This document shows positions 10,013-53,734 of a stretch of 64,000 nucleotides of DNA, piece after piece. The stretch is taken from assembly GCA_030386875.1 (NCBI GenBank), contig CM059558.1, positions 6,333,501-6,397,500 of the forward strand, read 5' to 3'. The position numbers and the translations under genes are program-made. The stretch comes from Morinoia aosen (Eukaryota > Arthropoda > Malacostraca > Amphipoda > Talitridae). A model generated the notes under the pieces. The model was not told the origin of the DNA, made no database searches, and was given only the letters and a program-made list of their open reading frames with translations. Positions within the stretch are counted from its first letter, which is position 1, and each line of letters starts with the position of its first letter.

Positions 10013-10362
10013 AATTAGTCGTTTTAGCCTCCCTACCCAGAAACAAATGCGATCCAAAGAGAGGAAGGAGGAAGGCACGGCACCATTTAGTATGGAGTTA
10101 AGGAAACGCGGAATCTACGCAGAAAGGGCATAGAAACAGTAAGTTGTGAAAGAAGATCATGAAACAAGACCAAAGTTGAAGAGGAAAGTAGTAGGTGTTG
10201 AAGAACAGGACAGCAGTGAACCGAAAAAGGTGGTCCTTAACATAACAAAAACATTTTATTTCAACAAAAAGAAGGCTTACTTAACTCTCAGCTCGGGCCT
10301 TCACGTTGTCTCCCTGGGAGCGCTAGTTCCCATAGATACAATAATTGTATCCTCCTGAGGGG
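10013..10362 (-). mobile_element. Retroposon family copy A, full length
   Basis: A minus-strand copy of the dispersed retroposon. Its head (CCCCCTCAGGAGGATACAAT read on the minus strand) lies at the high-coordinate end and its 3' end (GGGAGGCTAAAAC) at the low end. A perfect 12-bp direct repeat, GCTTGATCAACA, flanks it at 10001-10012 and 10363-10374. No long ORF belongs to it. Confidence 0.8.
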
Positions 10363-10824
10363 GCTTGATCAACATGAGGTAATAAGGATTAACTGAAAGA
10401 TTCGGTTTTTTATTTAAAGTAAATACGTGAGAAAAATTGTGAATGAGTGCTCCACTGAGCACACCCTTTTAATGAATCTGAGATCTTCACCATAATTCAT
10501 CGACTCAAGGTTGACCGAAGCAGAATATGCAGTTTGGTGATGTAATTTCAAGATAACTATATAATTTATATTCGAGCCACACTATAAGGGAGGAAAAATA
10601 CACGTTGAATTCCAAAAATTATCCTCCATAATGCTTGAACACTTTGTGCTTCATTTTTCTTGCGCTGCATCGTAACGACACGTAGTATCTCTATACTTTT
10701 AATTCATATTGATACGAAAACTTGAATTTCACTCGAAACTTCACCCCTCAATGGTTTTCTTCGTTCACTTCTAACTTTCCCCCGTTGTTGTCTCTCTATT
10801 CCGCCTCCTTCAGTTGGTCGTCAG

Positions 10825-27545: not shown

Positions 27546-27548
27546 AGG

Positions 27549-27919
27549 CCCTCTCAGGGGAATACCACTTAAATTATGTATCAAAGGGAATTAGCACTTC
27601 CATGGAGAAAATTTAAGTTCCCGAGCTAAGAGTTAGGTAGGCTTTCTTCATTTTAAACTAAAATATTTTTTGTTATATTTAACGCAATTTTTTTCGATTC
27701 ACTGCTGTCCTGTTTTTTCTGTACTTCTGACTTATTTCTTCAACTTTCATCTGGTTTTCTTACTTTCCTTCTCAACTTCCTGTTTCTATGCGCGCGGAAC
27801 TAGTGTGTAACACCTTGTGCATACATAGATTGCCCGTTCTCTTAATTCCATACTAAATGGTGTCTTCATACTTGCTCTCTTTGATCATGTGTTTTGTGAT
27901 AAGAGAAGCCGAAATTAAC
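27549..27919 (+). mobile_element. Retroposon family copy C
   Basis: Starts CCTCTCAGGGGAATACCACT and ends AGAAGCCGAAATTAACT. It carries an expanded centre (GCGCGCGGAACTAGTGTGTAAC) relative to copies B and D. No clear TSD, and more diverged than B or D, hence older. Confidence 0.7.
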
Positions 27920-30834: not shown

Positions 30835-31672
30835 TTTCTTGAGGACGAATTTGTCCGGTTTTAAAACTAATATTCTGAATTGGCTACTACCGTCCGTATT
30901 GCGCTTATGTTTACGTACCAATTGCCCTGTTATTATTAAGTTTCTTCCTCGGCATTGAGAATCGACATATAAAATTAAAAATTTGGAACACTTTTGTGTC
31001 CTTGTACTCGTTAATCTTTTCAGCTTCGAACAAGCTGCTAAATCAAATGTGTTGAGGTATTTCCTCACAGTAGACCACCAAATTGATGACAGGAAATGTA
31101 ATTTTTAATTACTGATGTAAACTCAAAACAGGAATTCATATATGTATAGTATTTATTGACGAAGAACTCGTGAGCTAAATAAGATTTAGGTGTTATTTCC
31201 TAAATGCTTAGTAACGCTTTTTCACTGTATTCTGCTGTAAATTAGCAGAAAATCCTGTAAAGTTTTCGGTATAAATTCATCGAAAGCTCCAGCACTTTTA
31301 GTATCGTCCGAAATTCCTGAATTTATTGGGAGTTGCGTCAGTTTGAGAAAATTTAATTATTGGAGACATGATTGAAAACTGCGCTAGCGTCAGCATTGAA
31401 TGAAAGAAATGATCGTACAACGGTGAATATCACCAACAAAAAGAAACGCTCAACCCATGGGGCGACACATCAATAGTAGTTTTTTGTGCTGAAACGAATG
31501 TGCTTGTGGGGGTTTTAAAAGGAGGCTTAGAGTGTGAGGTATTTCTCCACTACTGCCGACTCTGGCGCCTGAACGTGACTGACGTCTGTCAGCTAGAAAT
31601 TTCAGTGGGTACCCTAAAATAAATCGGTACTCAATCTGAAGCCAGGCTGTATTCAATTCTCATGCACTCACC

Positions 31673-32036
31673 CCGCAGGGGGATACAACTATTGTATCTA
31701 TGGGAATTAGCGCTCCGAGAGGAAAAATGTGAGGGCCCGAGCTGAGAGTTAGGTAGGCCTTCTTTTTGTTGAAATAAAAGTATTTTTTTTTATGTTATGG
31801 ACCACCTTTTTTCGGTTCACTGCTGTCCTGTTTTTCAGCACCTCTGACTTTCTTCTTCAACTTTTATCTTATTACATGAACTTCTTTCTCATCTTACTGT
31901 TTCTATGCCCCTTCAGCATAGATTCCTCATTTTCTTATCTCCATACTAAATGGTGCCTTCCTCCTTCCTCTCTTCGATACGCTCTATTTTTGTAGCGGTT
32001 AGGGAGGCCTAAACTAACTTATAATCTAATCTAATC
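31673..32036 (+). mobile_element. Retroposon family copy D, full length, perfect TSD
   Basis: Starts CCGCAGGGGGATACAACT and ends GGCCTAAACTAACTTA with a TAATC-repeat tail. Perfect 15-bp direct repeats, TCTCATGCACTCACC, flank it at 31658-31672 and 32037-32051. This is the clearest copy and looks the youngest. Confidence 0.9.
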
Positions 32037-32224
32037 TCTCATGCACTCACCGAAGTGCCGCCGCCGTAAAATTGTGTATGAGCGCTCCTGCATCTACAGG
32101 TGCGTCCTGCCACCATCGAAGGTAGTGTCTTGTGGTATTTATTTTATTTACCTCTTTTGGTGCATGTATCACTGATTTATGCATTCATTGATCAATTTTT
32201 ATGATAAGATTCTTTATAATTAAG

Positions 32225-32520
32225 AACTTAGAGTGAGGTAGGCCTTGATTTTGTTCAATTACTTTTTTTTGTTCTTTTGAGGACTTTTCTTCGCTTCAAT
32301 GCCGTCTTTTGTTTCAGCACCTCTGATTTTCTTCTTCGAGTCTTATCTAGTTGCCTATCCTTCAATCTAAATTTACTGTTTCTATGCATACAGGATCCTG
32401 TGCGAGAATACATTTTGTGCATAGATTCCACGTTCCATTAACTAAACGCTAAATGAGGCATTCATCTTTCGTCTATGTGAATAGCTTTGTTTTGGTAAGG
32501 GGGACTGAAACTAACAAATA
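32225..32520 (+). mobile_element. Diverged retroposon copy, 5'-truncated
   Basis: Begins inside the element (AGAGTGAGGTAGGCCTTG) and runs to GGGGGACTGAAACTAACA. It carries the extended centre (CAGGATCCTGTGCGAGAATA). 5' truncation fits target-primed reverse transcription. No TSD recognised. Confidence 0.7.
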
Positions 32521-33830: not shown

Positions 33831-33836
33831 GGTCAG

Positions 33837-34938
33837 ACCTGGTGGAGAGACCTGGTGGAGAGACCTGGTGGAGAGACCTGGTGGAGAGACCTGGTGGAGA
33901 GACCTGGTGGAGAGACCTGGTGGAGAGACCTGGTGGAGAGACCTGGTGGAGAGACCTGGTGGAGAGACCTGGTGGAGAGACCTGGTGGAGAGACCTGGTG
34001 GAGAGACCTGGTGGAGAGACCTGGTGGAGAGACCTGGTGGAGAGACCTGGTGGAGAGACCTGGTGGAGAGACCTGGTGGAGAGACCTGGTGGAGAGACCT
34101 GGTGGAGAGACCTGGTGGAGAGACCTGGTGGAGAGACCTGGTGGAGAGACCTGGTGGAGAGACCTGGTGGAGAGACCTGGTGGAGAGACCTGGTGGAGAG
34201 ACCTGGTGGAGAGACCTGGTGGAGAGACCTGGTGGAGAGACCTGGTGGAGAGACCTGGTGGAGAGACCTGGTGGAGAGACCTGGTGGAGAGACCTGGTGG
34301 AGAGACCTGGTGGAGAGACCTGGTGGAGAGACCTGGTGGAGAGACCTGGTGGAGAGACCTGGTGGAGAGACCTGGTGGAGAGACCTGGTGGAGAGACCTG
34401 GTGGAGAGACCTGGTGGAGAGACCTGGTGGAGAGACCTGGTGGAGAGACCTGGTGGAGAGACCTGGTGGAGAGACCTGGTGGAGAGACCTGGTGGAGAGA
34501 CCTGGTGGAGAGACCTGGTGGAGAGACCTGGTGGAGAGACCTGGTGGAGAGACCTGGTGGAGAGACCTGGTGGAGAGACCTGGTGGAGAGACCTGGTGGA
34601 GAGACCTGGTGGAGAGACCTGGTGGAGAGACCTGGTGGAGAGACCTGGTGGAGAGACCTGGTGGAGAGACCTGGTGGAGAGACCTGGTGGAGAGACCTGG
34701 TGGAGAGACCTGGTGGAGAGACCTGGTGGAGAGACCTGGTGGAGAGACCTGGTGGAGAGACCTGGTGGAGAGACCTGGTGGAGAGACCTGGTGGAGAGAC
34801 CTGGTGGAGAGACCTGGTGGAGAGACCTGGTGGAGAGACCTGGTGGAGAGACCTGGTGGAGAGACCTGGTGGAGAGACCTGGTGGAGAGACCTGGTGGAG
34901 AGACCTGGTGGAGAGACCTGGTGGAGAGACCTGGTGGA
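33837..34938. repeat. 13-bp satellite, about 85 uninterrupted copies
   Basis: ACCTGGTGGAGAG is repeated head to tail for 84 full units plus 10 nt. Phase is held from the first base to the last (84 x 13 = 1092), so there is no net indel, and by eye I see no substitution. Since 13 is not a multiple of three, all plus frames read the same 13-residue peptide (WWRDLVERPGGET) and the minus strand is open too. The 400-codon ORFs here are therefore artefacts. Downstream, GAGAGACCTGGCTGC at 34946 is a decayed edge unit. Confidence 0.97.
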
Positions 34939-35454: not shown

Positions 35455-35815
35455 CCCCCCTTAGGGGATGCAGCTATTGTATATAAGGGAATTAGCACTC
35501 ACAGGGGGAAAATGTGTGAGGTCTCGAGCTGAGAGTTAGGTAAGCTTTTTTTTTTTTTGTTGAAATAAAATGTTTTTTGCTATGTTAAGAAACACGTTTT
35601 TTCGGTTCACTGCTGACCTGTTTTTCAGCACCTACTATTTTCTTCTTCAACTATTATCTTGTTTCATGAACTTCTCAACTTACTATTTCTATGCCCCTCC
35701 TACATAGATTCTGCGTTCCCTTATTTCCGTACTAAATGGTGCCTTCTTCCTTCCTCTCTTCGGAATGCTTTTTTTGAGCGGTTAGGGAGGCTTTAACTAA
35801 CATCTAATCTTATTG
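35455..35815 (+). mobile_element. Retroposon family copy E
   Basis: Starts CCCCCCTTAGGGGATGCAGC and ends GGGAGGCTTTAACTAACATC. A standard copy, but the TSD is not evident. It adjoins the older relative at 35165-35450. Confidence 0.75.
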
Positions 35816-35819
35816 TCCT

Positions 35820-36446
35820 AACGTGGGTCATTTTACACTAATACAGATGCGTGATCATTTTCGATTAAAAAATTAGCTGCCATTTTTATACGTTGCGAAG
35901 AGCGAGAAAATGTCATTCAATGTCAAGAAAATATGTTTTTAAATTCGTTGAGTTTAGTACGAGTTAAATTTTAACCTCACCTAATTGGTAAATGAATGTA
36001 ATGGAAATGAGACAATCTCAATTAGGTTTTAGTGAAAGTAAAGTGTAACATGCGTTTTGCAAATTATGTACCATAAAGTTGGAGGGAAAATTGAGTTAAA
36101 AAATTCAGTGAAATAATTGTTGCAGTACAGAGTCAGGCTTCGTGAATCTTACTAATTTCCCCAAATTTTATGATTTCTCCCAGTATCCTACCACTATTCA
36201 AATTGCTGCAAAATATTTTTTTCTTTAAGTAGAAACAGCGACTAACTCGGTATCTGCATTAATGAGTTATTAAGATTATAGTTAGGTTATTAACCCATGA
36301 CATTATTTAGTTTCATTAAATTCATGAAAGTAGGTGTAGTTAATTCATCACAATTCTCGAAATTAATAATCTACTAACTTATTTTCTTGCAACGCTTTAT
36401 ATCTTACGTGAACCCTTGTCTTCAGGCAGTATTCTGGAATTCTGCG
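35820..36446. other. No gene recognised
   Basis: A+T-rich sequence up to the TIR element. Confidence 0.45.
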
Positions 36447-36456
36447 TGACGAGCGG

Positions 36457-37250
36457 ACCGGCTAGCCATTTTTGAGAACCCATCTAAGATCCTTCCCGAG
36501 ATCCTTCATTTTGGACGAGTCATAATTTCTAAAGCATTGCACCTAAAAACTTAAAATTAGTCTCATTATAAAGATCGATTTATTCTCCAATTCTGAGTGT
36601 ATAATAAAACTGTCATACGCTCCCTGGAGGAAGATGAAGAGCAAGTTTCTCCTAGCCTCTGAATGGTCGACCGATTTTTCAAAAGGCTCATTTTGGACGA
36701 GTCATAATTTCTAAAGTATTGCACCTAAAATGTTGAAATTAGTCTCATTATAAAGATCGATTTATTCTCCAACTCTGAGTGTATAATAAAACTCTCATAC
36801 GCTCCCTGGGGGCATGACAGAGAGCAAGGTAACTCGGGAAGGATCTTAGATGAATTCTCAAAAATGGCTAGCTGGTCATTTTGGACGAGTCATAATTTCT
36901 AAAGTATTGCACCTAAAAATTTGAAATTAGTCTCATTATAAAGATCGATTTATTCTCCAACTCTGAGTGTATAATAAAACTCTCATACGTTCCCTGGGGG
37001 ATGACAGAGAGCAAGGTAACTCGGGAAGGATCTTAGATGAATTCTCAAAAATTGCTAGCTGGTCATTTTGGACGAGTCATAATTTCTAAAGTATTGCACC
37101 TAAAAATTTGAAATTAGTCTCATTATAAAGATCGATTTATGCTCCAACTCTGAGTGTATAATAAAACTCTCATACGCTCCTTGGGGGATGACATAGAGCA
37201 AGGTAACTCGGGAATGATCTTAGATGGGTTCTCAAAAATGGCTAGCCGGT
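36457..37250 (+). mobile_element. 794-bp TIR element, copy 1 (inversion arm)
   Basis: Ends are 44-bp inverted repeats (ACCGGCTAGCCATTTTTGAG... ; one mismatch). Inside are four tandem units beginning CATTTTGGACGAGTC at 36507, 36689, 36877 and 37064 (182, 188 and 187 bp apart). Units 2 and 3 each end with a slightly mutated copy of the right TIR (...AAAATGGCTAGCTGGT or ATTGCTAGCTGGT). The first unit has a unique tail (CTGAATGGTCGACCG). No ORF. It is a non-autonomous element; TIR length and an 8-10 bp TSD would suit a MULE- or hAT-like type. Confidence 0.85.
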
Positions 37251-37372
37251 TGCTAGGTAGTCATTAGGTGCTAGGGAATCATTAGGTGCTAGGCAGTCAT
37301 TAGGTGCTAGGTAGTCATTAGGTGCTAAGGAATCATTGGGTGCTAAGCAGTCTTAGGTGCTAGGCACTCTCA
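37251..37372. repeat. 18-bp minisatellite, left half
   Basis: TAGGTGCTAGGCAGTCAT-type units, about six, with GGAATCAT and GTAGTCAT variants. The same unit in inverted sense abuts the other TIR element at 52316-52470. Confidence 0.9.
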
Positions 37373-37724
37373 AGATACCTGATTAAAGTAAAGGCAATCA
37401 TTAGGTACAAGATAATAACTAAGTATCGAGTCACAGATTGCTTCACGTATTAAAGTTAAAACTTTATACGAACATTGTCCCAACATAAACCATGAGATTC
37501 GAGACAAATTTGTAAAAATGCAAGTAACCAGGGTTGTCGCAGTGACACTCCATGCGTGCTTGAGCAATGAACATATAATAGAAAAGTGTAGAAACCATGT
37601 ACGTTGAAATGATTTACTCACCTGTCTTTTGTTTTTTTATACCATTTGCAGAGGATTCCGCAGTAGTTCCTTAATCATGACAAACACAACGTTTCAGAGC
37701 AAACGTACGCGATGAAATCTTGCC

Positions 37725-37875
37725 TTATCATGCTTCAATCGCTTCGTCATGCTTCAACTCGCTTCGTCATGCTTCAAAATGCTTTACCATTCTTCATCAT
37801 ACTTCACCATGTTTTCCCTCGCTTCGTCATGATTTATCATGCTCTATTACGCTTTATCACGTTCCATCGCACTCC
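37725..37875. repeat. ~20-bp degenerate repeat
   Basis: CGCTTCGTCATGCTTCAACT-like units, decaying to TGCTTTACCATTCTTCATCA and further. Confidence 0.75.
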
Positions 37876-38019
37876 GTTTTCAGTACGTTAATGCTACAAA
37901 CAGGGCAAACTTGATAATAACTACAGAATTCCTATTACAAATATTAAATTTTAATTTGTTCCAGCAGCGACATGTTCGCGAAGTGATCTGTAATTACAGT
38001 GGTATGTAAGAGTGATATA

Positions 38020-38223
38020 AAGGGTGTTCCAGAATCGGGCATCATCCAGGATGGCGGTTGAATTCTTGAGCTACAGAGCGGCATGTTGCCCCATCTCCTC
38101 TAAACATGAAAACAAATTGCACTTTTTCTTGTAATGTTAGTTTCTCACCCATATCAGATCTAATCTGAAGCATAAAAAAGGAATGCAAATTATTGTATAG
38201 TGCGTAAATTCTGGGACACCCTG
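38020..38223. mobile_element. Mariner-type MITE, 204 bp
   Basis: The left end AAGGGTGTTCCAGAAT and right end ATTCTGGGACACCCTG are inverted with two mismatches, flanked on both sides by TA (38018-38019, 38224-38225). No coding capacity. TA targets and an AGGGTGTCCCAGAA-type end are typical of mariner-related MITEs in arthropods. Confidence 0.65.
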
Positions 38224-38229
38224 TATAAT

Positions 38230-39575
38230 AATACGAATAATAGCATGCTCCTTGTCGTCATGGAATAGAAGGCGCATGTCGCAACGAGATAGAAGGTTAC
38301 AAACAGGATGCTGTAAGAACTGGAGCATTTCACGCATTGAGTTGCAGACCAGCAATAGCAGTCGCGCTTGAACAAGCTTCTGCTCTTCTCTCAACAATTG
38401 CTGCATTATCCGACACATGTCGCGCGAGCAGCTACGTGCTGAACTTTCACAGCTTTAAAGCAAGTGCACTTCTGCAGTCTCAGTTAGTAACGAGATGGTG
38501 CCCGGGGCGAATGTATTTTTTAGACTAAAGGGATTACTTACAAAATGATCGATGAAGGTACAGTTACAATTAGAGTGAGTGTAGAAAAGCAGCTTTGGTT
38601 TGGTCTCCTTTGCATAGGAAAGCGAAGGAGAAAAATTACAAGGATTAGACTAATATTATATATATATATATACAATTATTGAACCCTCTACAGATTCCAG
38701 TAGTCACGGCTTTTGATTCTCTTTTTTACTAATTTTTCAATATTTTGGCCCAATTCAAGATCTCAGCGTGTCGTAATTCTTGAAAAGATGAAGATCACTT
38801 AACAAAAACGGTTATCAATAATAGTACACTATGTAACATTTCAACGTCAAAGACTCCATCAACAGCGTGAGAAGATGAATGGATAACGGGTACACTGAGT
38901 TATAACGTATAAGTGTAACTATTCTTTCTTAAGTAAGCAGAAACTAAGGCAGGTCTCCAAAGTATTAAAGATTCGAACGAGAACGAGCCGCACAACTGCT
39001 CTTGAAATGTTTACACATGAAAAATATCAAAATTTTGTAAATTTTTATGATAAGTTGAAGGTCAAGAAACCACGCGTTCAAGCAATCATATTAGCGTATT
39101 GAAAAAAGTCATTGAACACAAATCGAACTTTAAAATATCACGTGAAGTACCTTATAATCTCACCAGAGTTTGAGAAGCGCTAGGTTCCGAGGGCAAGATT
39201 GCTCACAACCTGCCTTTAAGCATCGAAGCTCCTGATGCTTAATGGACTATCCCGATGATGCTGCAAGTGTAAAACGCTAGTGCTCTGATCTCTACTTCGG
39301 TTCGAACGCAACACGGAATGATTACTATGATCTAAAGTTCTTAATTTTTACACCTAGGTGACCTCAAGACCCCAAATATATACAAATAATGTACATGTAT
39401 ACAGATATATGTAAATATACATACACAAAATATGTACACATATTTAAACATATCTACATCTATATATTTGTACACATTGTGCATACGCACACATTCTCAT
39501 TAAGTTCTTCGACATGCTGAATGTCTTATTCAGTCACGATTGCATGACCTGATTTTAACGCTCTGGTCTCCGATA
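38230..39575. other. No gene recognised
   Basis: Contains a (TA)9-10 run at 38653-38671 and a simple-sequence-like ATATAC/TACATA stretch at 39375-39480. Confidence 0.45.
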
Positions 39576-39577
39576 TC

Positions 39578-39811
39578 ATGAGGAGTCATCTGTTCAATTT
39601 CGAGCCACAATTGATTCTGCATAGACGTCCAAACCTCAATCACTCCGAGACTGTGTTTACCACGGGAATCTTTCGAGCTGATCTGTTTCTTTCGTTCGCA
39701 TCGTGGGAAAAGTTGACGGAAGTTACTGAAGCAATTCAGCAGGTTACTGGAAGCGAAGATAAGCCAATTTCATACTCATACAGACTCAATGAGGATCACA
39801 GCGTGAGGTAA
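39578..39811 (+). CDS. Uncharacterised ORF, possible exon (weak)
   Basis: 77 codons, MRSHLFNFEPQLILHRRPNL to SYRLNEDHSVR, ending in AGCGTGAG|GTAAAT, a good splice-donor match whose TAA forms the apparent stop. Upstream the frame is open back to a TGA near 39546. No acceptor is evident and no domain is recognised. Confidence 0.15.
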   Translation: MRSHLFNFEPQLILHRRPNLNHSETVFTTGIFRADLFLSFASWEKLTEVTEAIQQVTGSEDKPISYSYRLNEDHSVR

Positions 39812-40009
39812 ATGTTGAGGCATCTGAGCAATTGATTCGGGATTTATAAATCTCTTCAAATTATGCACGTCATCCGTCCATTCGTGATGAAGACTAGCAT
39901 GATCTCTGAATCACTGACCTACAGTCGAAAGGTTTTCCTTGAAATGGCTGGCCATCAGAATTCATTCTGTATGATATTTTCGAGCAGTAAGCTATTGTTG
40001 GAATTAGAA

Positions 40010-42020
40010 AGCTAGAAAATAATGAGAAACGTCACTTACTTTTTTTTGTTGATATCGCTGAACATTTCTCTGGGATGCTTCGTGAAGCATTTTGAGTTCT
40101 GGTATCCTTCCTGAACGCAAATGATTCTAAAGTAGGTGTGATTTTTCTTTGTTGGTCGAGAGCTAATTCGTTAGTGCTTTTTCTAATATTTTTGACAAAA
40201 CAGGTAACAGAGTGATAGGTCAGCAATTTGAAACTGTATTGATGCCGCCAGATTTCCGTAATGTTATTTTTACGAAATGTTTCCACTGGTAAGGATATTT
40301 GTTTGTGGCTAAGTGTGATTTATTACCAAGCTGATGAATGGTGCTTTTAACAGGGAAGCTGTATTCAATATGTTGAAGGCTAATAGCCTCTCGACCAACT
40401 GCTCTTCCATGTTTCGGGGCGTATAAAATTTTGCTTATCTCTAAAACATGAACTACTCTTGGTTTTCATTTATTTCTGGGAAAAGGAGATAAGGTATTGT
40501 TTGGATGTACAACAGTAGGTTTGTTTGGAATGAGCTTTGATATTTCATCAAAACCTTGATCAAAAACTTTTGTGAAGAGTTGAACGTTGAATTCATTCAC
40601 TGTTTTCAAGGGAATGTAAAAATATCCTTAGCTGTCTGAAACTTTATTTTGACTAACGTCTCCTATGATTTTTTACGTTCGTTCGAGATTTCGTTTTGCC
40701 CTTAAAACAGCTCCCTGTGGATGTGTCAATTTTGGTCTTATGACTTATATCTGAAGGATAATTTCGAGAGGTTAATTTGGTTACTGAAAATACTGTTCGA
40801 CTACACGAACAATACAGTTCGATTGTAATTTTTACTTCATATGCTATCCGATAAGCATGTCTGTTTTGCTCTTTTCGTGTTAGGGTGCACATTTATTCAG
40901 GTTCGATGCATGATTGTTGTTAAAAAACGAAACTTGTAAATCAGCATCATCAGTGTCTTCTATGCTTTGAAATGCTTTTCATCTGTCGAATAGTTTTTCG
41001 TGGAGTGGTTTTGGTGAGTGGTTATCTTCCACTTGTTAGGTTTTACTACCAAATTTTTGCTTCTCTTCAACAATACTGATTAGAAATTTTAGTGACTGAT
41101 GATCGGAAAAGGAGGGTAAAATCTCTGCGCAAAGTACAGCTCGTAGATTGATTGTTACGGCTGAACCGAAAAACTTCCTTGAACTTTTTGGTAATGGTAA
41201 TCGGTTCCTAAGCCATTTGCAAGTAGAAAACTTTGCACAATACTTTGCTTGGCTGATTGATATTGTCAGATATACGTGGAAGTCATCAAAAATATCCTAA
41301 GACTATCTGGCTGCTGAGATTAATTTAAACGTTAGTCTATTCAAGGAGTTCTAAAGTTGAGAATAGAGTAGCTGGTGGGTGCTTGCACGACTGCTGATGG
41401 TGAAAGACTTGTTTTTGTTCCGCTGAACAATGAGCTGAACTATTTCAATGTTTTCACATTTTTCTCTTATTGCAAGTGACGATCTTGAGAAGACCTCTTC
41501 AATGTGAATGCATAAACCGCTATCTCTTATATTTTAACGCCGTCATCACGATAAAATGTAAACTCTGGATTGTTGAACTATGAGCCTCAAAGTCCTGAGT
41601 TGAAACATGATTCAGATTCGTATGAAATGCTGACGTCATCAGTAATCAACGTTACTCCGATATCTTTTTTTTACGTGAGCCGTCAGTAATGCTGTTTTAT
41701 TTTCTTGTTATTTACACTTAGAGGCAGGTATTTGAGGTAATACATGAGAGGTCTTGGAAAGTATTCTGCATTAATCTTCTTCATTCCTCAGTCCACTCTC
41801 ATGCAGGGGAACATGACCTTACAGTTCGGTTAGATGATTTTAAAGTAATAACCTTTGCATCTAGTCAAATAAACCTCCGAATTTCAAAATTGTTGTACAC
41901 TTTAAAAGAAAAACCTCTTAAAAACGACATGCAGTAAACATTCCCTTAGCAACTAGTGTAATATTTGAACTGAACATTTTTGTCTGTTTTTTTTGTTTGT
42001 TTCTCTTCACATTATTGATC
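40010..42020 (-). pseudogene. Decayed LINE (endonuclease and reverse-transcriptase remnants)
   Basis: Reading the minus strand from high to low coordinates: near 41570-41370, NPEFTFYRDDG and GLCIHIEEVFSRSS-like residues resemble the middle of an APE endonuclease. Near 40640-40480 follows a linker (FTFPLKTVNEFNVQLF). At 40310-40200, YPYQWKHFVKITLRKSGG and SN(stop)PITLLPVLSKILEKA match the YRPISLLPVLSK reverse-transcriptase motif. At 40150-40060, FAFRKDTRTQNASRSIPEKC matches the GFRKGxSTQ motif. Frames shift several times. It is a jockey/CR1-like family, distinct from the 1.9-8.4 kb LINE. The 3' half of the reverse transcriptase is missing. Confidence 0.65.
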
Positions 42021-42029
42021 TACATCTGA

Positions 42030-43030
42030 CATCTAACTAGATTTATTTCCTTGTTTCAGAGTTCATAATGACCCAGGATGTCAAAAGGTTAAAAAATATA
42101 TTTTTATTCATTGACTTTTTTTTAAATAAGATAACGATTTCACTGAATTCTTGTTTCTTAGCACAATTGTTTTCATTCAGATCTGCAAAAAGTGAAACAT
42201 ATATATCCATATCTTTGTCGCTGGCAAGATGCAGAGTGTTCGCTTTTTTGAAGAAAAAAATTGACGACTCTACCACCAAGCTTGTTTAGGCAGAATTGAA
42301 CATATATTTTTTAAAGACATGTAAAATCTACGAGACAATCCCTAAGTTTTTGCGTTTTAAACTATATAAAAAGTCTTTGATGTTGTCAAGTTTTTACAAG
42401 TCTTGGCAATCCAAACTTTTGTAAATGAGACCGCATCGAAAAGAACATATCTTAGGAAGCTGGCGGTCGAAAATATTCATTATGTTGGCCAGTTTGCTGG
42501 TGATATCTGAGCCAGGTGAAAGGTTATATCTTGATCTATATTATCTTTGTGTAAAATCGAAATTAAAACATTATGATTGCCACTGAGCATTTTTACGAGG
42601 ACACTGTAGATCATACTTTTGAAGAACTCTATCAAGAGAAAGTTATTGAGTTTAATTAATTTTTCATTTATAGTCTTTGACCTTTGATTTCATTCATACA
42701 GGGGAGATAGGGTGTCAGTAAAAATATTCATTTCAAACTTTTACCAACTGATGTTCTCTACAAAGGACAAATGATTGTGACGGTGCCACATTCTCACTAA
42801 AACGGTATTGAATTGAAACTACGGTTTAAAATATCGCAAAATCGCTTACCCTTAACTCACACACAAGATACGCTAATGCAGTGTCTTGTGCTCCAACGGA
42901 GATGCATCTTTAGCGAGGGAAATAATGAGGTTTAAAGGGTCGAAAAAGAATTCATCTCAATAGCAACTGCATCACAAACGAGAATGTAAATGAACCAAGA
43001 AATAAAAAAGTCATGGTGAAGGTAACCGAA
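42030..43030. other. No gene recognised
   Basis: A+T-rich; ORFs of 73-78 codons overlap on both strands at 42043-42289 with no domain. Confidence 0.4.
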
Positions 43031-43033
43031 CTA

Positions 43034-43366
43034 TTAACGACAATTAAATGATTTGCGCATTGAAGTGTTTTTGTCACAGTCAAATGAGCCTCGCCTGTCT
43101 GTTCCGGTCGGCATCCTTCGAACTTGAGGCGGATGCTCGACTAACTTCGTGTCTCCACGTCGGCTAACTGTGCCAGTTTCCTTCCATTGTCTTTCCTGTT
43201 TCGTGAATTTGGACAGCGTTTCTCTTGTGCAGCTACAAGTCAAAGAGCATTGTTCAGTGGTCAGATGAGAGTCCTCCGGCCGATGTGCAATGTGATAGTC
43301 ATTACGATCTTCAAGCCGTTGGTACTTGACAATGAGAAAAAATTCTGACTGACCATGGGACCACAC
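43034..43366 (-). pseudogene. Possible transposase helix-turn-helix remnant
   Basis: 110 codons. Residues KFTKQERQWKETGTVSRRGD resemble the WRETGSV-type second helix-turn-helix plus basic patch of mariner-related transposases, but no catalytic region follows. The match is short and judged by eye, so it could be chance. Confidence 0.2.
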
Positions 43367-43379
43367 ATCTTTGTTATGG

Positions 43380-46310
43380 AAACAATCTTATAGAAGCGAA
43401 CATACGGATGCTTAGACGTGGATATTGAAGAGTGTGAGAGTAAATGCTATTATTTCTACTATACTCTTCCTATGGTGATAGGGAGTTTTTGCCTTAGTAC
43501 CTGACAAAGCACAAGCTTGTGTATTAACCGAAGATTAGGTCGCTCATTTCTAAACTGTCACCATGTTGTATTATGTTCTGTTTCTGCACTAAGGATGACT
43601 ATTTTGATCAAAAATGGTTTATTGACCTTCATTTGTTTGTCTTCAGAGATGATTTTTATTAAAAGAACATTTATTTCGCCAGAAATTCGTTTACCTGTTA
43701 AAGCTCGTAAAAAAATTGCTGTTAAGGTTCTTGTTTGTTCGCCGACCAACATACACTGGAACCATAGTGCTTTCTAGCACTGAAATTCATTTTTCTAGTA
43801 GTCAAACAAAAATAACCTCTTATACCACGAGGTAGTACACAACCACACCGGATTTTTCTCACTGAAGGAACGACACACTTTCAAGAACGTTCGTAACACA
43901 ATTTACCTTAGAGTCCATGATCCAAATTGACTAAGTGATGCGATAGGAAATAGTATATGTGTCGCTGTAGCTCTGAGCACTTTCGTAATTTTTCACTTTT
44001 ATTCCATCCATTTTAGGAAGAGCAGAGCGAGTATTGCGCCTCGGTTTCCATTCTTTACGAAGTCCCTAGTAAACGATTCAGCACTCGGTATTGGCGCAGC
44101 AGTCACAAGCCTTTCAGATAAAAACAGAGCTCCGGTGGTCAACTGGGATATTAATGATTAGCATTATAGTTTGAATGCTGTAAACTAGTTCAAAAAATTT
44201 TTAGGCGTTGGATTTCTGCGTCATTGGATTCAGTAATTAATCAATTTTACATGAAATATGTTAATGAAAACGAACACACTCGAAATTTTTCTATAAGCTG
44301 GATGCTTCACGATATGGAGTGACAGTTTGACATCCAAGCGAAACTTCGCTGCAGGTCTTTATGATGTCTAAAGATGCGGACGAGAGTTCAAGGCAGGTCG
44401 GAGTGACATGGCTTAGCAAGTTACTCAGCAGAACTCGAAGTGTAAGCCACTTGAGGCAAACTTGGTTTATATCTCTAATGATCGTAAATGCCTAAATTAA
44501 AAAAAAAATGGATTACTTGGTTAAAGAATTGCAGGGCAAGAATCTACAAGTGAATATCGTAACGCTGAAGTGAGTACGTTCAGTGAATTTTTTTGAATTA
44601 CGAGTTGCTTTACTTAATCGTTGCGAACGGTGATATTGGGAAGGAAATTTCTCGTACACAACTTAGTGCTATTTTTAGAAATAAACTTTCAATGAAAATG
44701 TGTGAGGATTGCAGAGCGCTGGTGACTAGGCAAATGATACTCAAAATTCTGAGTTGCGGCTGGAAATTGATTTAATTGAGAAAATTAACTGAAGTGTAGC
44801 AGAAAAGCGCTCGCAATGGTAACAGAGGACATTGGGACGCTGATACAATAATTACAACAGGAGATATGTGTGCGAACTCCAGCAAACGAGGCGAGTACGC
44901 TCGCTAGCTGCTGCGCTTACCAGCATCAGCAGCACTGACTTACTAGCAGTTAAGACACGGTTCGCTACCCAGCATAATTATAAGCGAATTTTAGCCTCAA
45001 TAAAATGCCCTATGAGACAACTAATTAGGATATTGCATGCGAACCGTGCTCTACTGGACGCTCAATAATGAGGTACTTTACAGAGCTATAAATTTGAGCC
45101 CGCGTCTAATTAGTCCGCTTCTGTAAAGCTGGAATCGGTCCGGAGAAATCAAGGACCAGTTCAGACAGCGGCGCTCGGCGCTTTTGACTGTGACGCGGGC
45201 TGTGCGAATGCAAAGCTAACATTATTAAAACATTACTTACATTCTGACGGGATAATTGAAATGCCACGAATGAGCCTGTGGGAGTTCCTCGCCCGGTCGA
45301 CCATTGTTATTCCACGTACAAAAATTAAGAGCATATTATTCAAAAGAGTATGCAAATTTGACGCTCATTATATAGTTTTTATAAAGATATTGATGCTTGA
45401 AATGGAAAGACTTGGAAATTAGCACAATTACGAACAAGGTCTCGTTTGGACATGGATATTTATGCAGGTTGTTTAACTCACAAATGCCCCCGAATATAAG
45501 CCGTGCAGGAAGGAATTTATTATGCCTCTTTATTTTCCATTATCGCAAAAACAGTGGAATGGTAAGCGAATATCTATGACAGCCACTTGACAACACCCAG
45601 CATAGTACAACGAAGAGAGAAAGTTTTCTGTGTATACAGTCGGTGTGCGAAGATTTATCCAATAACTTCTGGTTACCATACCTATGTATCAATTATATTC
45701 ATAAATTTATTGATACCACAACCGCGAATCAATGTAATGAACAGTAATTTACTATTACCACCTCCAAACTTCGATAGCTTCAGCAATTTTTTGTCACCGC
45801 GTGCGAGTGTTCATGGCATTCTGTAGTTCACTAATGACGGTTCTGTGTTTTAATGAGACATTCAGTAATTTAGTTTCTGCATCCTCGTACCTACTTTGTA
45901 CTTACCTGTTTACTGGAATCACGTACGTGTGTCTACAATCAGCAGTAAGATGAAATCAACAGCAATACATTGCCGCATTTGCTCTTACATGTATTAGAGA
46001 CGAGGATTGAAATTCAACGCGTGTTTGAGGTTCTCACAGGAAAAGATATCTTTGCCGTATCATAGTCTCGTACCACACTCGGTGTGGAAAAAACAATTTA
46101 ATCAGTTGTAACAACATTCCGTAATGACTAGAAAATTTCAGTATTCGAAAGTGAATGTTATTTCAATGAGAAACTAGATTTAGTTTATGACCGCTCAACG
46201 ACTTTTTGCTGTTGTTTGTGTAGTTGGAGAAATAACAAGATTTTTTTTTTCCATATTGCGGTTATAGAGGCTTTCCGAGCGTTGTCATTTCCATTGAGTC
46301 GAGTAAAAAT
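43380..46310. other. No gene recognised
   Basis: Isolated short ORFs (43517-43777, 44593-44775, 44868-45068) with no recognisable domain. Confidence 0.4.
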
Positions 46311-46319
46311 TTAATTTAC

Positions 46320-46473
46320 GTAGGAATTATGCTGTTCAATGAAGTTGACAGTATAAAGACTTGAATTGACTAGCATCTTCGATTCTAAGGCTAAATATTG
46401 TTCAAGGATATTGTGTGGCGAAGTAACACCGACACTTTCCATACTAATCCTCAAATACTGTTGAGTTTCAAAT
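46320..46473 (-). repeat. Dispersed inverted repeat, copy 1
   Basis: About 150 bp on the minus strand matches 49091-49247 on plus. Both read ISMESVG..SP.NIL.QYL, then ESKMLVNSS or KSKMLVNSS, then TVNFI.QHN in one frame. The similar peptide frame suggests coding ancestry. I cannot name a protein. Confidence 0.7.
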
Positions 46474-46677
46474 ACTGTTGAACAGCTCATCCCATGAAAT
46501 AATCTTCGCTCAGGCAGCATTGACAACTTCTGCGATCATCATTAATTTATTCATCCATGACTGCGTCAACTGATGGGATGTACGGATGCTGTCTATGCGA
46601 TAAAAACAGTATACTTGCGCTGCAAAGAGGGAGGTGGTATATTCAAAGCACATCTGTACATTAAATAAGTTAGGCTA

Positions 46678-46997
46678 GATTAGCTTAAATGTTAGTTTCC
46701 GCCTCCCTAACCGCTAAAAAAAAGCGTTCCGAAGATAGGAAGGAGGAAGGCGCCATTTAGTATGGAGATCAGGGAATGCGGAATCTATGCAGCAGAGGCA
46801 TAGAAACAGAAAGTTAAAGATGAAATTTAAGAAAGAAGATAAAAGTTGAAGATGAAAATATTAGGCGTTGAAAAACAGGACAGCAGTGAACCGGAAAAAA
46901 GTGGTCCTTAAAATAACAAAAAACATTTTATTTTACAAAAAAGAAGGCCTACCCAACTCTCAGCTCGGGCCCTCACACATTTTCTTCTGGGAGTGCT
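46678..46997 (-). mobile_element. Retroposon family copy F, 5'-truncated
   Basis: Minus strand. The 3' end (GGGAGGCGGAAACTAACATT) lies at the low coordinate. The head stops at AGCACTCCCAGAAG, about 45 bp short of full length. A 15-bp TSD, AAATAAGTTAGGCTA (46663-46677) and AAATAAGATAGGCTA (46998-47012), has one mismatch. It inserted into the 3' tail of copy G. Confidence 0.85.
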
Positions 46998-47012
46998 AAA
47001 TAAGATAGGCTA

Positions 47013-47357
47013 AACATCTCCCAACCACAACAAAGGTGTTTTAATGAGAAGAAGAAGGAAGGCTCCATTTAGTATGGAGTGTGGGGAGCGGAAATTGTGA
47101 ACAAGGAGTGTTCCCACACAGATCTCCCTGCGGGTAGAAACAGTAAATCGAGAAAAAAATTATGAAATAAGATTAAAAAAGTCAGAGGTGATAAAAAAAC
47201 AGTGAACTGAAATACTATTTACTATGGTCCGTAACAAAATAAAAACCTATCACTCCAATTGCCGGAGAGCCTACCCAATTTTCAGCCCGGGACCTCACAT
47301 CTTGCCCCACGGAGCGCGAATTACCTTGAATACAATACGTGTACATTTCTGTGGGGT
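47013..47357 (-). mobile_element. Retroposon family copy G
   Basis: Minus strand. Head CCCCACAGAAATGTACACGT near 47357, 3' end GTTGTGGTTGGGAGATGTT at the low side. It carries the extended centre. Copy F sits in its tail, so G is the older of the two. Confidence 0.75.
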
Positions 47358-47359
47358 AA

Positions 47360-49085
47360 CTTGTTTCTTACGAGTGAAAACGGCTCACAAATGTTGAAAA
47401 AGAATAGTTTCAGATTCCATACAAGAAGTTTTTAAAACATAATATAGTTGTTAATAACGAGTCTGTTGCAATTTGAGTTCAAAATAATATATTTACCATA
47501 TCATTATATCGTCATTGTAGCTTATTTTATACACCGTTATTAAAGTAATGTATTTTTTATTTTTATGATATAGGAAATATATTTATATGTAAAACGCGAT
47601 CATGCATGAAAAATTATTGTAGCGTGAACATCTACAGTAACCAGAGCTTCACAGCGAATTGTCTCTGTACGTAACACTGCCGACTGGAATTTCAGTGAAC
47701 TAACTTTCCAAATGAAATAAAATTATTAATGACGTTAAAAAATGGCGAAAAAAATAATATGAGATATACACGATTCCTCTTTCAAACAAGTGTACCTGTT
47801 CTGGTAAAAATGACATTATTTACATACTCCAAAGTCGCAAGCTCTTTGGTTAATCGGTCCGTACTGGAAATCCTTTATTCGTATAAATTTGTATAGGTTA
47901 TTAGAGGTTTAAATTTCACATAAAAATTTTCATTACAATAAGCAAGTAATCTGAAAAGTAAAACTCTTCAAATTACTAGAACATTTTAATTTCGTTTCTA
48001 AGTACAAAATAGAAGTACTATCTGATCACGTCTTCTCTCATTCTGATTCATTATAAAGCCTAAACGTGTACTCGCGCGCATGCAGCTAACAAACGTAAAG
48101 TATTTAATGGTCATGAACTCATTTAGCTGACAATACTCACAAGTCTTAAGAAATTCGTGACAGATTTTAATATCATCAATCTATGAACAGCGAATTTATT
48201 TAAAGGTAACTCCAAAGATCAACCTATGAGCATGGCAGAACGTCAAAAGGCGCTTTAAGTTTGTAAATTCTGATTTTAATTGAACGAACGTAATAAATGA
48301 CCTTAGAGCTCAAAAGCTTGATAAGCCAACAAAAACCTTTGACTCTTACTCCGAAACATTTCACAGGAAACCTCAACTTTGAGGTTCAACATTCAAGTTG
48401 CATCGCTAGGAGAACTAGCCATGCTTCAAAAAAGACTCGACTTCAGGAACTGAATTCCTTCAAAAGGATGAACTTCAAGCCTATTTCGCTCCTTGCAGAA
48501 GAAACTCTGGGGCTGCTTATTTTACATTCCCTAACCTTCTCAGGCATGAAACTAGTGCAACCAGCAAGTTAGAATGTCCGAAGAAAATCAATGAGAGGTT
48601 GAGAGCTTTAACTTTCCTCTGTCCGGACCAGAGCACCCGCGGTAGCTGCAGCAAGTTAGACAGCAGAGGCCAGTGGTAGCAGCACGAAACCAATCTCCCT
48701 TCGGAGACTTGATAAGCCGAGACCTTCCGTCTGCAAACGCCCGTCTCCTCAGGCGACAGTAGCAAGGCTGCGCGAAGAGGCTTAGTTCAGTTTACGTAAA
48801 CAAAAAATAAATAAATAATTAATAATAAGTTGACAAATAATAAATAATTAATCAATAAGTAATCAGTACACGATCAATTAATAATCAAATAATAATCTTA
48901 CCTAATAATACCCTTGGCGTGTTTATTTATTTATACTCGTATATTTGTTTGGTGTCCGCATCTTTCGTCTCTGCCACGCTCATAAGAATGCCTATTGACT
49001 GTACTTGTAATGCGAGTTTCACCAGTGCACAAGTTCAACAATATTTTTATCACGGGTACTGTTAGGATGGATATAATTGCTTGTC
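47360..49085. other. No gene recognised
   Basis: G+C-rich patch at 48600-48780. A (AATAATTA)-like low-complexity stretch at 48805-48905. ORF 48297-48572 (91 codons) has no recognised domain. Confidence 0.4.
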
Positions 49086-49090
49086 ATCTT

Positions 49091-49247
49091 CAGTATTTGA
49101 GACTCACTGCCTCCCCCAGAAGGATTAGTATGGAAAGTGTCGGTGCATCATCGCCATTCAATATCCTTAAACAATATTTAGAATGAAAATCGAAGATGCT
49201 TGTCAATTCAAGTCTTTTTACTGTTAACTTCATAGATCAGCATAATT
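49091..49247 (+). repeat. Dispersed inverted repeat, copy 2
   Basis: Partner of 46320-46473 in opposite orientation. GGATTAGTATGGAAAGTGTC, AAGATGCTTGTCAATTCAAG and CAGCATAATTC are shared. It differs from copy 1 mainly just before the GGATTAGTATGG motif. Confidence 0.7.
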
Positions 49248-49319
49248 CAATCAGCATAAGTTTGTTCAAGAAAGGCATTGAATCCCGTCTTAATTGGCGG
49301 GCCGTGCACACTAGTAATT

Positions 49320-49465
49320 AATAAACTATAATTAAAAAACAATAAAAAATATATTTAAGAATGATTGCATTAAAAAAGAAATTTAGAAAAATTAAATTAC
49401 AAAACAATTAACTATTTAACAATTAAATATACACAAAACTACATAATTAGAAAACTATACCTCAA
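49320..49465. repeat. A+T low-complexity tract
   Basis: A run of AATTAAA, AAACAATAAA and TTAAATTA variants with very few G or C. Confidence 0.7.
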
Positions 49466-49726
49466 TTGCTCAGATTGAACCTTATCTAGTTAACTCGGTT
49501 TCAATTATCAGCATATTCAAATATATTTTTCTGTTCTCTTCTCTTCTTCCCTTACTGAAGCCTAAATCCTTCTGACAAACTGATGAGATAAATGGGCATC
49601 ATGGCAATGGGCTACGAGGAATCCAAAGCATATCTACAGAAATTATTGCATCGTTTCAGAAACAGTAGACAATAATCATAAAATTATGCAGAAACGGTGC
49701 CATTAAAAACCCAAAATGCAACAATT

Positions 49727-49820
49727 CTACTTGAATGTGTAGAATTCAAGTAGAATTCTTAAGTATTAAGTAGAATTCTACTTGAACAAGTAGAATTCTT
49801 AAACAATTCTACTTGCACAC
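49727..49820. repeat. Cluster of AAGTAGAATTCT direct and inverted repeats
   Basis: The 12-mer AAGTAGAATTCT and its inverse occur about seven times. AAGTAGAATTCTACTT at 49768-49783 is a perfect 16-bp palindrome. TCTACTTGAAT / ATTCAAGTAGA form an 11-bp stem at the left. Confidence 0.85.
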
Positions 49821-49829
49821 ACACACAAC

Positions 49830-51060
49830 GGAGCCGTATACAAGAACTTCTAAATACTTTATATTAAATCAAAAAGCTAGGCTATGATGTCCACAAAACG
49901 TGAACATTAAGTCAAGAAAAAGTCAAGCTTTCAGACGAATTTCACTCGCTGACTTGGTTCGTATCAAGCGGCTTGGTTTCTGAATTCACACAAGTTATGC
50001 TTATAATTTTGACCGTAAACTTCCAATAGTCAACACAGCGTTGATTTCGTCCAGAATAAGGCGGCCACTTTATGTTATTCAGAAAAACTCGTTTCCACGA
50101 GGGTTAACTAATGAAGAAAAACATCCAGGTATCTAAGTATTCCTGCGAAAAAGCGCCGTTTGGCTTGAGACTGACATGTTCGAGATGAAAATGCATCTAC
50201 ATATGCGTTCAGGAGTAACGCGCTCTTTAATCAACTGACTCGGCAGAAACAGTAAAAATTTTACAATCATGGGAATATGTTAGGACAAACTGTGAAGCAG
50301 ATTCTTTTTTATTTCATCAGTGCTGCTGAAAATGTCTCACGTTTCTGTACAAGTGAAAGATCCTTCAGTATGTTTCAGGCCATTAGTAATTAATTCAGAA
50401 AAGAATTAAAGGCCAATCTATGACAACGCTGCTCCACACAAATGAGGGGCTTCACACAAATTATGTGTTCGTGTCAGGTGACCATACAGTATAGTCAAGT
50501 ACTATACTGTAAAATATAAAGAAACACAACAGTATATTAGAACATCAAGAAGTAGTTTCCGATTTCGGAAGAGGAACAAATTGAGACTTAGCAAATGCTG
50601 TTAATGCATTTTTATGAAATCGGAGGTTTCGCGAGTACCACAACCTGAACACAGTAAAATTCGATAGGAATGCTGATGATGCTTGTATAGCAAGCTCTCA
50701 ATATTTCTACCGCATAAAAAGAACTATGAAGGCATTACTAATACTTTGGGATATTTCATCCTTGCATGGAAGAGGAGAAGTTGCAGAGTACTACAAGCTA
50801 CACAATTCACTCAAGGCAAATCATGGAAAATTAATTTATTATTCGAGACTCCCATACAGCAACGGCTGGTGAAAAAGGTTACAAGTTGAACAGCCAGCTC
50901 TAATTAGAGGCTGGCAACAAATTTCAGTAATTAAAAACTATTGAAACTAGGGTGCGTCCAATAGTCACAAGTTTATCACGGCCGTGGCCGATCTCTGTAA
51001 AATTAAATTTCTTTAATTTTGAGAAGGTGAAAATTGGCCAAATGCGGAATTCCCTTTACA
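49830..51060. other. No gene recognised
   Basis: A+T-rich sequence leading to the CpG-rich patch at 51100. Confidence 0.4.
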
Positions 51061-51099
51061 TAAGGGCAATACTCTTTCTTGACTCTTGAGCTTATAATC

Positions 51100-51350
51100 T
51101 GGACTCGCCGGCGATTACTAATCTTGGGCCACCAATGCGGCCCGGAGACACGCAGGAGGTGCCCTCTCAGATTGCCCGCAGGTCGTCGTGCGGTCGAGCA
51201 GCGGAGAACGCGGATAACGACTGTGCCACACGGCGCAATACGACGTCACAGCTGCGGCCGAGATAGCGGCCCACCCTCGTGACAGAGACAAGCACGTGCT
51301 GGCGGCGGAAAATTCAAGGACCGCGGTAACACCGCAGGTGCATCGACCCG
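51100..51350. other. CpG-rich patch
   Basis: Many CpG dinucleotides (GTCGTCGTGCGGTCGAGCAG, AACGCGGATAACGAC, GCTGCGGCCGAGATAGCGG) in otherwise A+T-rich DNA. Both strands are open for 70-90 codons. It could be a CpG island, an exon or a retroposed fragment. It ends about 170 bp from the inversion arm. Confidence 0.5.
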
Positions 51351-51521
51351 TCTGATAAAGAAACCATAAATGAGTACGAGACGAAATTATCAAAATGTTA
51401 ACCTTTCAAATTTAACACAACAAATTGTAAAGTTTTGCGAGATAAGTTACCTATTTACCTAAGTAAGCGCAGCTGAGAGGGGTAAATAGACACCGGAGAA
51501 TGCAGCATAGGCCCGCTCGTC

Positions 51522-52315
51522 ACCGGCTAGCCATTTTTGAGAACCCATCTAAGATCCTTCCCGAGTTACCTTGCTCTATGTCATCCCCCAAGGAGCGTAT
51601 GAGAGTTTTATTATACACTCAGAGTTGGAGAATAAATCGATCTTTATAATGAGACTAATTTCAAATTTTTAGGTGCAATACTTTAGAAATTATGACTCGT
51701 CCAAAATGACCAGCTAGCAATTTTTGAGAATTCATCTAAGATCCTTCCCGAGTTACCTTGCTCTATGTCATCCCCCAAGGAGCGTATGAGAGTTTTATTA
51801 TACACTCAGAGTTGGAGAATAAATCGATCTTTATAATGAGACTAATTTCAAATTTTTAGGTGCAATACTTTAGAAATTATGACTCGTCCAAAATGACCAG
51901 CTAGCCATTTTTGAGAATTCATCTAAGATCCTTCCCGAGTTACCTTGCTCTCTGTCATGCCCCCAATGAGCGTATGAGAGTTTTATTATACACTCAGAGT
52001 TGGAGAATAAATCGATCTTTATAATGAGACTAATTTCAAATTTTTAGGTGCAATACTTTAGAAATTATGACTCGTCCAAAATGAGCCTTTTGAAAAATCG
52101 GTCGACCATTCAGAGGCTAGGAGAAACTTGCTCTTCATCTTCCTCCAGGGAGCGTATGACAGTTTTATTATACACTCAGAGTTGGAGAATAAATCGATCT
52201 TTATAATGAGACTAATTTTAAGTTTTTAGGTGCAATGCTTTAGAAATTATGACTCGTCCATAATGAAGGATCTCGGGAAGGATCTTAGATGGGTTCTCAA
52301 AAATGGCTAGCCGGT
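51522..52315 (-). mobile_element. 794-bp TIR element, copy 2 (inversion arm)
   Basis: This is the reverse complement of 36457-37250, equal in length, with the same four-unit internal structure in reverse order and the same unique unit (CGGTCGACCATTCAG) now near the right end. Its 44-bp TIRs are perfect. Only scattered substitutions separate it from copy 1, implying recent transposition or gene conversion. Confidence 0.85.
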
Positions 52316-52470
52316 ACCTAGCACCTAATGATTGTCTAGCACCTATAATGACTGCCTAGCACCTAATGATTGCCTAGCACCTAATGAATGCCTATAGGAT
52401 CTAATGACTACCTAGCACCTAATGATTGCCTAGCACCTAATGATACATAGCACCTTATGAATGCCTAGCC
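52316..52470. repeat. 18-bp minisatellite, right half
   Basis: CCTAGCACCTAATGATTG-type units, about eight, decaying rightward. This is the inverse of the units at 37251-37372. Confidence 0.9.
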
Positions 52471-52474
52471 CTAC

Positions 52475-53345: not shown

Positions 53346-53362
53346 AGTTGTCTAAAATATTA

Positions 53363-53715
53363 CTCCTCAGAGGGAGACAACTAATGGATCTATGGGAATT
53401 AGCGCTCCCGGGGGGATTATGTAAGGTCCTGAGCTAAAAGTTAGGTAGGCCTTCTTTTTGTTGAAATAGAATACTTTTTTTTGTTACGGACCATTTTTTT
53501 TCGCTTCACTGCTGTCCTGTTTTTCAGTACCTCTAACTTTCTTCTTCAATTTTTGCTTGTTTCATGAACTTCATTATTAGCTTTCTGTTTCTATGCACCA
53601 TGTGCATAGATTCCACGTTTCCTTAACTCCATGCTAAATGGTGCTTCCATCTTTCCACTCTTTGAACATCTTTGTTGTGGTAAAGGGAGGCTAAAACTTT
53701 CTTATAATCAATCAA
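53363..53715 (+). mobile_element. Retroposon family copy H, full length
   Basis: Starts CTCCTCAGAGGGAGACAACT and ends GGGAGGCTAAAACTTTC with a short ATCA-repeat tail. TSD TGTCTAAAATATTA (53349-53362) and TGTCTAACATATTA (53716-53729), 14 bp with one mismatch. Confidence 0.85.
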
Positions 53716-53734
53716 TGTCTAACATATTATTGTC

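Follow-up and report, generated by a model that had tools for sequence, protein, structure and literature searches.

Exchanged target duplications point to a 14.3-kb inversion between two copies of a terminal inverted repeat element in Morinoia aosen

Two 794-bp copies of an element with terminal inverted repeats (TIRs) lie in opposite orientation in a 64,000-bp stretch of the genome of the talitrid amphipod Morinoia aosen (GenBank assembly GCA_030386875.1, contig CM059558.1, positions 6,333,501 to 6,397,500; C3:6333501-6397500 in our numbering), hereafter called the window. The 14.3-kb segment between them is almost certainly a real inversion of the order that preceded the insertions, and the same arrangement recurs in every close pair of whole elements in a genome-wide census of the short-copy subfamily. 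As to its origin, we narrowly favour a single step coupled to transposition, rather than two separate insertions followed by ectopic recombination.

Results

Two inverted copies with exchanged target duplications

Copy 1 occupies positions 36457..37250 on the plus strand and copy 2 positions 51522..52315 on the minus strand, with a spacer of 14,271 bp, and both coordinates and orientation agree with the original prediction. The copies are 98.6% identical (11 mismatches in 794 bp), and each carries 44-bp TIRs (beginning ACCGGCTAGCC) that enclose four units of about 187 bp. When the two flanks of a single copy are compared over lengths of 8-11 bases, no more than 4 agree, as chance would give. 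Across the copies, the sequence GACGAGCGG to the left of copy 1 (target duplication A, outer copy, 36448..36456, plus strand) recurs as its reverse complement to the left of copy 2 (inner copy, reversed, 51513..51521, minus strand) with 9/9 bases matching, and TGCTAGGT, read on the plus strand to the right of copy 1 (target duplication B, inner copy, 37251..37258, minus strand), recurs as its reverse complement, ACCTAGCA, to the right of copy 2 (outer copy, 52316..52323, plus strand) with 8/8. It had been proposed that flipping the segment between the copies (37251..51521, no strand applicable) would restore duplications of 9 and 8 bp, and exact alignment bears this out: both target duplications were exchanged by the flip. 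By a rough estimate, both exchanged matches would arise by chance in one given pair with a probability of about 4e-10. We also considered a macrotransposon, in which both copies would have moved the 14 kb as a unit, and rejected it, since GACGAGCGG and ACCTAGCA on the outer sides do not form a duplication.

The DNA beyond the duplications supports the flip independently at both sites. For site A, 240 bp of the rejoined site served as query against the 1.99-Gb genome (29 contigs), and the best 40 of 64 candidates were scored. Two of these were the window's own split halves; the other 38 were copies of a dispersed repeat, and every one (38/38, 80-88% identity) runs across the restored junction. 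The two repeat copies inspected in alignment, L094 and L095, have no gap at the junction (gaps occur elsewhere) and carry the target once each, as GACGAGCGA and GACGAGCGG, respectively. The outer half of the split repeat, at 36371..36456 (plus strand), is gapless at the junction against both of these in the restored order, and the inner half, at 50813..51512 (minus strand, past the duplication), aligns to L094 in two pieces, at 1415-1925 and 1938-2200 of the restored site, in which the junction follows position 1500.

Site B lies in an 18-bp minisatellite, of which the inner half array, now reversed, is at 37251..37366 (minus strand) and the outer half array at 52317..52473 (plus strand). A whole-genome search with a two-unit pattern, allowing up to 3 mismatches, returned only 6 matches, all within these half arrays, and deletion in silico of copy 2 together with one duplication leaves the array in phase, as judged by eye. 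Since both B flanks are minisatellite, the 8-bp match is not independent evidence, yet the minisatellite pattern itself is confined to this locus. The elements thus interrupted one minisatellite array and one repeat copy, each of which now has its two halves separated by about 15 kb. The unbroken repeats at site A and the locus-specific minisatellite at site B together substantiate the earlier proposal that the inner segment has been flipped.

Nine open reading frames (ORFs) of 88-117 aa within the inverted segment, and one outside it, gave no Pfam match; the search covered these ORFs only.

The arrangement recurs in close pairs

A search for the TIR pattern with up to 2 mismatches found 595 places genome-wide, internal copies included, of which the first 100 were listed. 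The census was drawn from the ends of the short-copy subfamily and not from all 595 TIR-like ends: 77 right-end and 54 left-end matches were grouped into 60 elements or fragments, with same-orientation ends up to 1.1 kb apart merged as one element and a distance limit of 20 kb between neighbours. L009 is a doubtful case of merging: its two left ends are spaced by 400 bp, and it has a single right end and no duplication. Five rows were left out, namely C2:49920564/49933039 and C8:57901471/57941544 (each taken as a single element interrupted by other DNA), C9:46180478/46182635 (a putative single element), and two fused composites without a spacer (C11:31634394/31634601 and C2:49933039/49933255).

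In four cases two whole elements are separated by no more than 20 kb, and all four pairs are inverted with both flanks exchanged. Besides the window pair, with its 14,271-bp spacer and exact exchanged duplications of 9 and 8 bp, these are C22:26922295/26923278 (spacer 191 bp; 8 and 9 bp, exact), C13:16373180/16373868 (83 bp; 10 and 9 bp, exact) and C13:21262315/21263235 (684 bp; 9 and 9 bp, exact), and each of the latter three fits within 1.3-2.0 kb in total. For 60 randomly placed elements, about 0.036 neighbours within 20 kb would be expected by chance. The census contained neither a close direct pair of whole elements nor a close inverted pair with unswapped flanks, although direct pairs closer than 1.1 kb would have been merged and so would escape it. 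An inverted pair on C8 (L018 and L021), which at 135 kb apart falls outside the distance limit, has its own intact 9-bp duplications at each copy. For the pair at L019, an AACAC/GTGTT bias in the spacer fits the flanks only after flipping, which lends weak support. The restored site at L028, used as a query, recovered its own three pieces and otherwise only a short repeat that matched the query's right end, and is uninformative about an empty site.

Kinship of the paired copies

Among 24 aligned copies, the two window copies are 1.4% apart and at least 2.8% from any other, and they share 8 exclusive variants. Their fork has support of 100/98 in a tree of 23 rows, in which the bootstrap had not fully settled. 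They are mutually closest in both halves of the element, with no chimerism between the halves, although sister parents would mask chimerism, and they have changed almost equally since their split (6 and 5 sites). These comparisons make the window copies clear sisters. The copies at L019 are modestly supported as sisters by 2 exclusive variants and a fork of 90/86; they also have a common left-end variant that appears in no other of the 54 left-end matches.

The element family

Target duplications were tallied in 34 unpaired elements. Exact duplications flank 19 of them. Fourteen are 9 bp long, with L033 and L035 having common flanks, and 5 are 8 bp long; another 2/34 match at 8 of 9 bases and 13/34 have no match. 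Among the unmatched, L013, L027, L031, L036 and L041 may have mutated or shifted duplications and L045 may have been cut short, so that not all 13 need be products of rearrangement and the fractions of orphans are rough. A 10-bp duplication occurs at L054, the L028 pair has 10 and 9 bp, and the four close pairs together span 8-10 bp. The one-base difference between the window duplications, which had been regarded as unexplained, is therefore normal for a family that makes duplications of 8-10 bp. Duplications of about 9 bp are typical of Foldback/Mutator-like TIR elements, and 9 bp is the commonest length here (14/19 exact cases), rather than the 7 bp of Galileo or the 8 bp that P elements make at their targets.

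The same TIR bounds four longer relatives, of 8.4-10.6 kb, which have 9-bp duplications (two with common flanks) and long inverted arms. On the strength of these features the window element is assigned to a Foldback/Mutator-like family, in which the long relatives appear as Foldback-type elements and the 794-bp copies as short forms resembling miniature inverted-repeat transposable elements (MITEs). In the long element at C8:36793772-36803990, both arms hold a fragment of a protein family whose open frames reach 1,359 aa and which has at least 151 genomic matches. As judged by eye, some matches are no more than about 12 kb away from exact TIR ends, at C6:5021645, C14:22161581, C4:66942551 and C20:45260025. 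Because it is present in the long arms and near exact TIR ends, the protein family is a candidate transposase. Its member at L093 (369-3989, minus strand), an open frame of 1,206 aa from this high-copy family, has acidic repeats at its N-terminus and may carry a cysteine-protease motif at its C-terminus; it gave no Pfam match at E up to 1, and its C-terminal similarity to cysteine proteases was non-significant (E = 0.028). The TIR of the element family was not found in the 6-kb locus of this frame.

Several other arrangements were seen in the family. Two Foldback elements of about 10 kb, L047 (C10:60864700-60874640) and L048+L049 (C10:62145800-62156500), lie 1.3 Mb apart with identical flanks (24 bp compared per side) and were apparently duplicated along with their surroundings; L047 contains a near-perfect 3.1-kb palindrome and large arrays, with matches 39 bp apart. 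At C8:57901431-57941596, which ends in L065 and L066, TIR ends 40 kb apart are both flanked by the 8-bp duplication CCTATTGA; they apparently belong to a single element and enclose about 39 kb of nested insertions or cargo. The TIR-bounded stretches C4:66942551-66976411 and C4:67207844-67230154 (L075, L076, L079 and L080) have inner flanks that are reverse complements of each other (24/24 and 23/24 bp). They form a segmental duplication in inverted orientation with family members at its borders, which aberrant transposition may also have produced. Scrambled or fused copies at L028 (1269-2581), L039 and C2:49920544-49933307, with extra, inverted or partial internal TIR units, look like products of self-insertion or template switching.

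Other repeats in the window

A repeat of about 350 bp, SINE-like (short interspersed element) in size, has at least 8 copies in the window that are about 65-85% alike (10021-10364, 16553-16902, 27548-27902, 31670-32039, 32224-32516, 35456-35822, 46664-47343 and 53362-53728). At 33835-34938 lies a very young minisatellite of 84.9 copies of the 13-bp unit AGACCTGGTGGAG, with 100% matches and no insertion or deletion.

Discussion

How the flip was made

Judging from genome structure, we consider the chances about even that the transposition reaction itself made the flip in one step. After replication, the transposase would pair one end of an element with the opposite end of its sister-chromatid copy (hybrid-element insertion), and the hybrid would then insert 14.3 kb away in one of two orientations. 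One orientation would produce the order A-element-B, inverted DNA, A'-element'-B' in a single step with two sister copies; the other would produce a deletion, leaving a single copy without matching duplications. A replicative strand-transfer route would have the same visible outcome. Close spacing and exchanged flanks, as found in 4/4 close pairs, are predictions of one-step hybrid-element insertion. Three intact elements with mismatched flanks, L011, L014 and L015, are as expected of the deletion product: a search for partners, using the left flank only, gave 2, 0 and 1 matches, respectively, each with 2 mismatches and taken as chance. Tandem duplication was tried as a source of these partnerless copies and rejected, as the 3-kb flanks of the three have no mutual similarity; the single 9-bp match in the flank comparison was the reversed left flank of L011, about 2.9 kb to the left of L011 itself.

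The alternative that survives best, possible and somewhat less probable in our judgement, is the Galileo model, in which two separate insertions (A-e-A and B-e-B, perhaps by one element hopping locally) were followed by ectopic recombination between the inverted copies. It yields exactly the end structure observed, including the exchanged target duplications, and in Galileo the route was demonstrated by chimeric copies (Delprat et al. 2009, PMC2775673). At the same time it requires a series of three events to have happened in four separate places, in a census where only about 0.04 neighbours within 20 kb are expected by chance and where, direct pairs under 1.1 kb aside, no close pair is direct and none keeps its own matched duplications; moreover, the window copies are sisters without chimerism between their halves. 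Recombination between inverted copies, put forward in the original prediction as a cause, may still have been responsible, but it is not clearly the best fit given the sister status of the window copies and the swapped flanks of all four close pairs.

A number of observations weigh against the one-step route. Hybrid insertion predicts copies that are identical at birth, yet the copies at L063 (236 and 418 bp) and L028 (605 bp and a scrambled 1,313 bp), that is in 2/4 pairs, differ in length and have no sister signal, which would suit two different parent elements under ectopic recombination; L063a is nearer the unlinked L064 (235/236) than its own partner, and L028a is nearer several unlinked copies than its own. 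Unstable tandem units or array contraction in a young, near-uniform family could account for the length differences. The L019 copies, 1.39% apart, are not mutual nearest by raw distance, with L019b 1.0% from L012, and even in the window pair the middle third of the element ties with L009b (4 differences each). If elements inserted locally and the DNA between them then flipped repeatedly, about half of the pairs would be swapped as well, and 4/4 would have a probability of 1/16; the partnerless copies could equally be explained by recombinational deletion between direct repeats. Finally, no transposase domain was recognised by Pfam in the 1,206-aa frame at L093 or in the protein fragments at L050 and L051. 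Because only one of the four pairs is clearly sisters, and the census is blind to direct pairs under 1.1 kb, our confidence in the one-step route is only moderate.

An assembly artefact, in which the contig was mis-oriented between the 794-bp inverted repeats, is very unlikely. Inverted repeats are a recognised cause of such errors, and the original prediction had offered this explanation as well. It is made improbable, as judged on the assembled sequence, by the three other pairs that repeat the arrangement in 1.3-2.0 kb, within the span of single long reads, and by the perfect 1.1-kb array of 84.9 copies of a 13-bp unit, which suggests accurate long reads; the genome is also assembled in only 29 contigs for its 1.99 Gb, and the window copies can be told apart at 11 sites. 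That the flank matches are meaningless and the elements unrelated insertions has a negligible probability, for even with the shared minisatellite depriving the 8-bp match of independence, such chance is refuted by the 9/9 match and the 38/38 continuity at site A, the restriction of the minisatellite pattern to two places beside the copies, and the same double match in three further pairs.

Extending the one-step, transposition-coupled reading to the family, we tentatively suggest, at somewhat less than even odds, that in this genome a MITE family of Foldback/Mutator-like type routinely inverts neighbouring DNA when it transposes, with close neighbours as one-step inversions of less than 100 bp to more than 10 kb and partnerless copies without duplications as the matching deletions. 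Inversions at transposons are commonly blamed on recombination between old copies, and the recurrence in close pairs suggests that the jump itself may flip DNA. If so, exchanged duplications would make visible, across a whole genome, a pathway of rearrangement for which crosses have otherwise been the main source of knowledge, and the one-step route would generate very small inversions, which surveys of breakpoints may overlook. Here, flank evidence within one genome supports the inversion without recourse to a second species.

Comparison with known systems

Inversions with exchanged duplications at TIR elements are already known from Galileo, and inversions by alternative transposition from P elements and Ac/Ds; the recurrence is the unusual part here. 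In the literature we found no family in which all close pairs are swapped and inverted, nor such inversions of 83-700 bp, in a search too narrow to deny that they exist in print.

In Drosophila buzzatii, where Galileo generated 2z3 and other inversions, PMC2775673 describes two inverted TIR copies at the inversion ends with exchanged target duplications, much as in the window, and notes that a hybrid element inserted from a single site leaves a result strikingly like that of ectopic recombination, apart from having identical copies. Galileo differs in its 7-bp duplications, its membership of the P superfamily and the chimeric copies at 2z3 (PMC2775673), whereas the present family has 8-10-bp duplications, sister copies in the window and spans from 83 bp to 14 kb. 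Hybrid insertion of P elements (PMC2775673) and alternative transposition of maize Ac/Ds (PMC8225341) likewise involve inversions from element ends acting together; according to the latter account, Ac/Ds inversions arise from the reversed ends of two elements, and sister-chromatid transposition leads to inverted duplications. Both belong to other superfamilies, and the route proposed here is drawn from genome structure only.

Among described families, the closest to ours appear to be Tetris/DAIBAM of the Drosophila virilis group (PMC4079207) and the Mutator/Foldback family Tm1 of root-knot nematodes (PMC3169594). Tetris is described as a Foldback element that has TIRs built of tandem units about 220 bp long and makes duplications of 8-10 bp, and a MITE related to it occurs at inversion breakpoints (PMC4079207); Tetris/DAIBAM belongs to another genome, is likened here by description only, and its inversions are discussed there as ectopic recombination. 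Drosophila FB4, with 9-10-bp duplications, is assigned to the Mutator-like group in PMC8277862. Tm1 shares composite repeated TIRs, duplications of 8-10 bp (mostly 9) and MITE-like forms with the family in M. aosen, and some of its forms carry a putative transposase, for which there is a candidate here; its TIR units differ in being 13-15 bp long, and the portions of PMC3169594 drawn upon here describe no inversion pairs.

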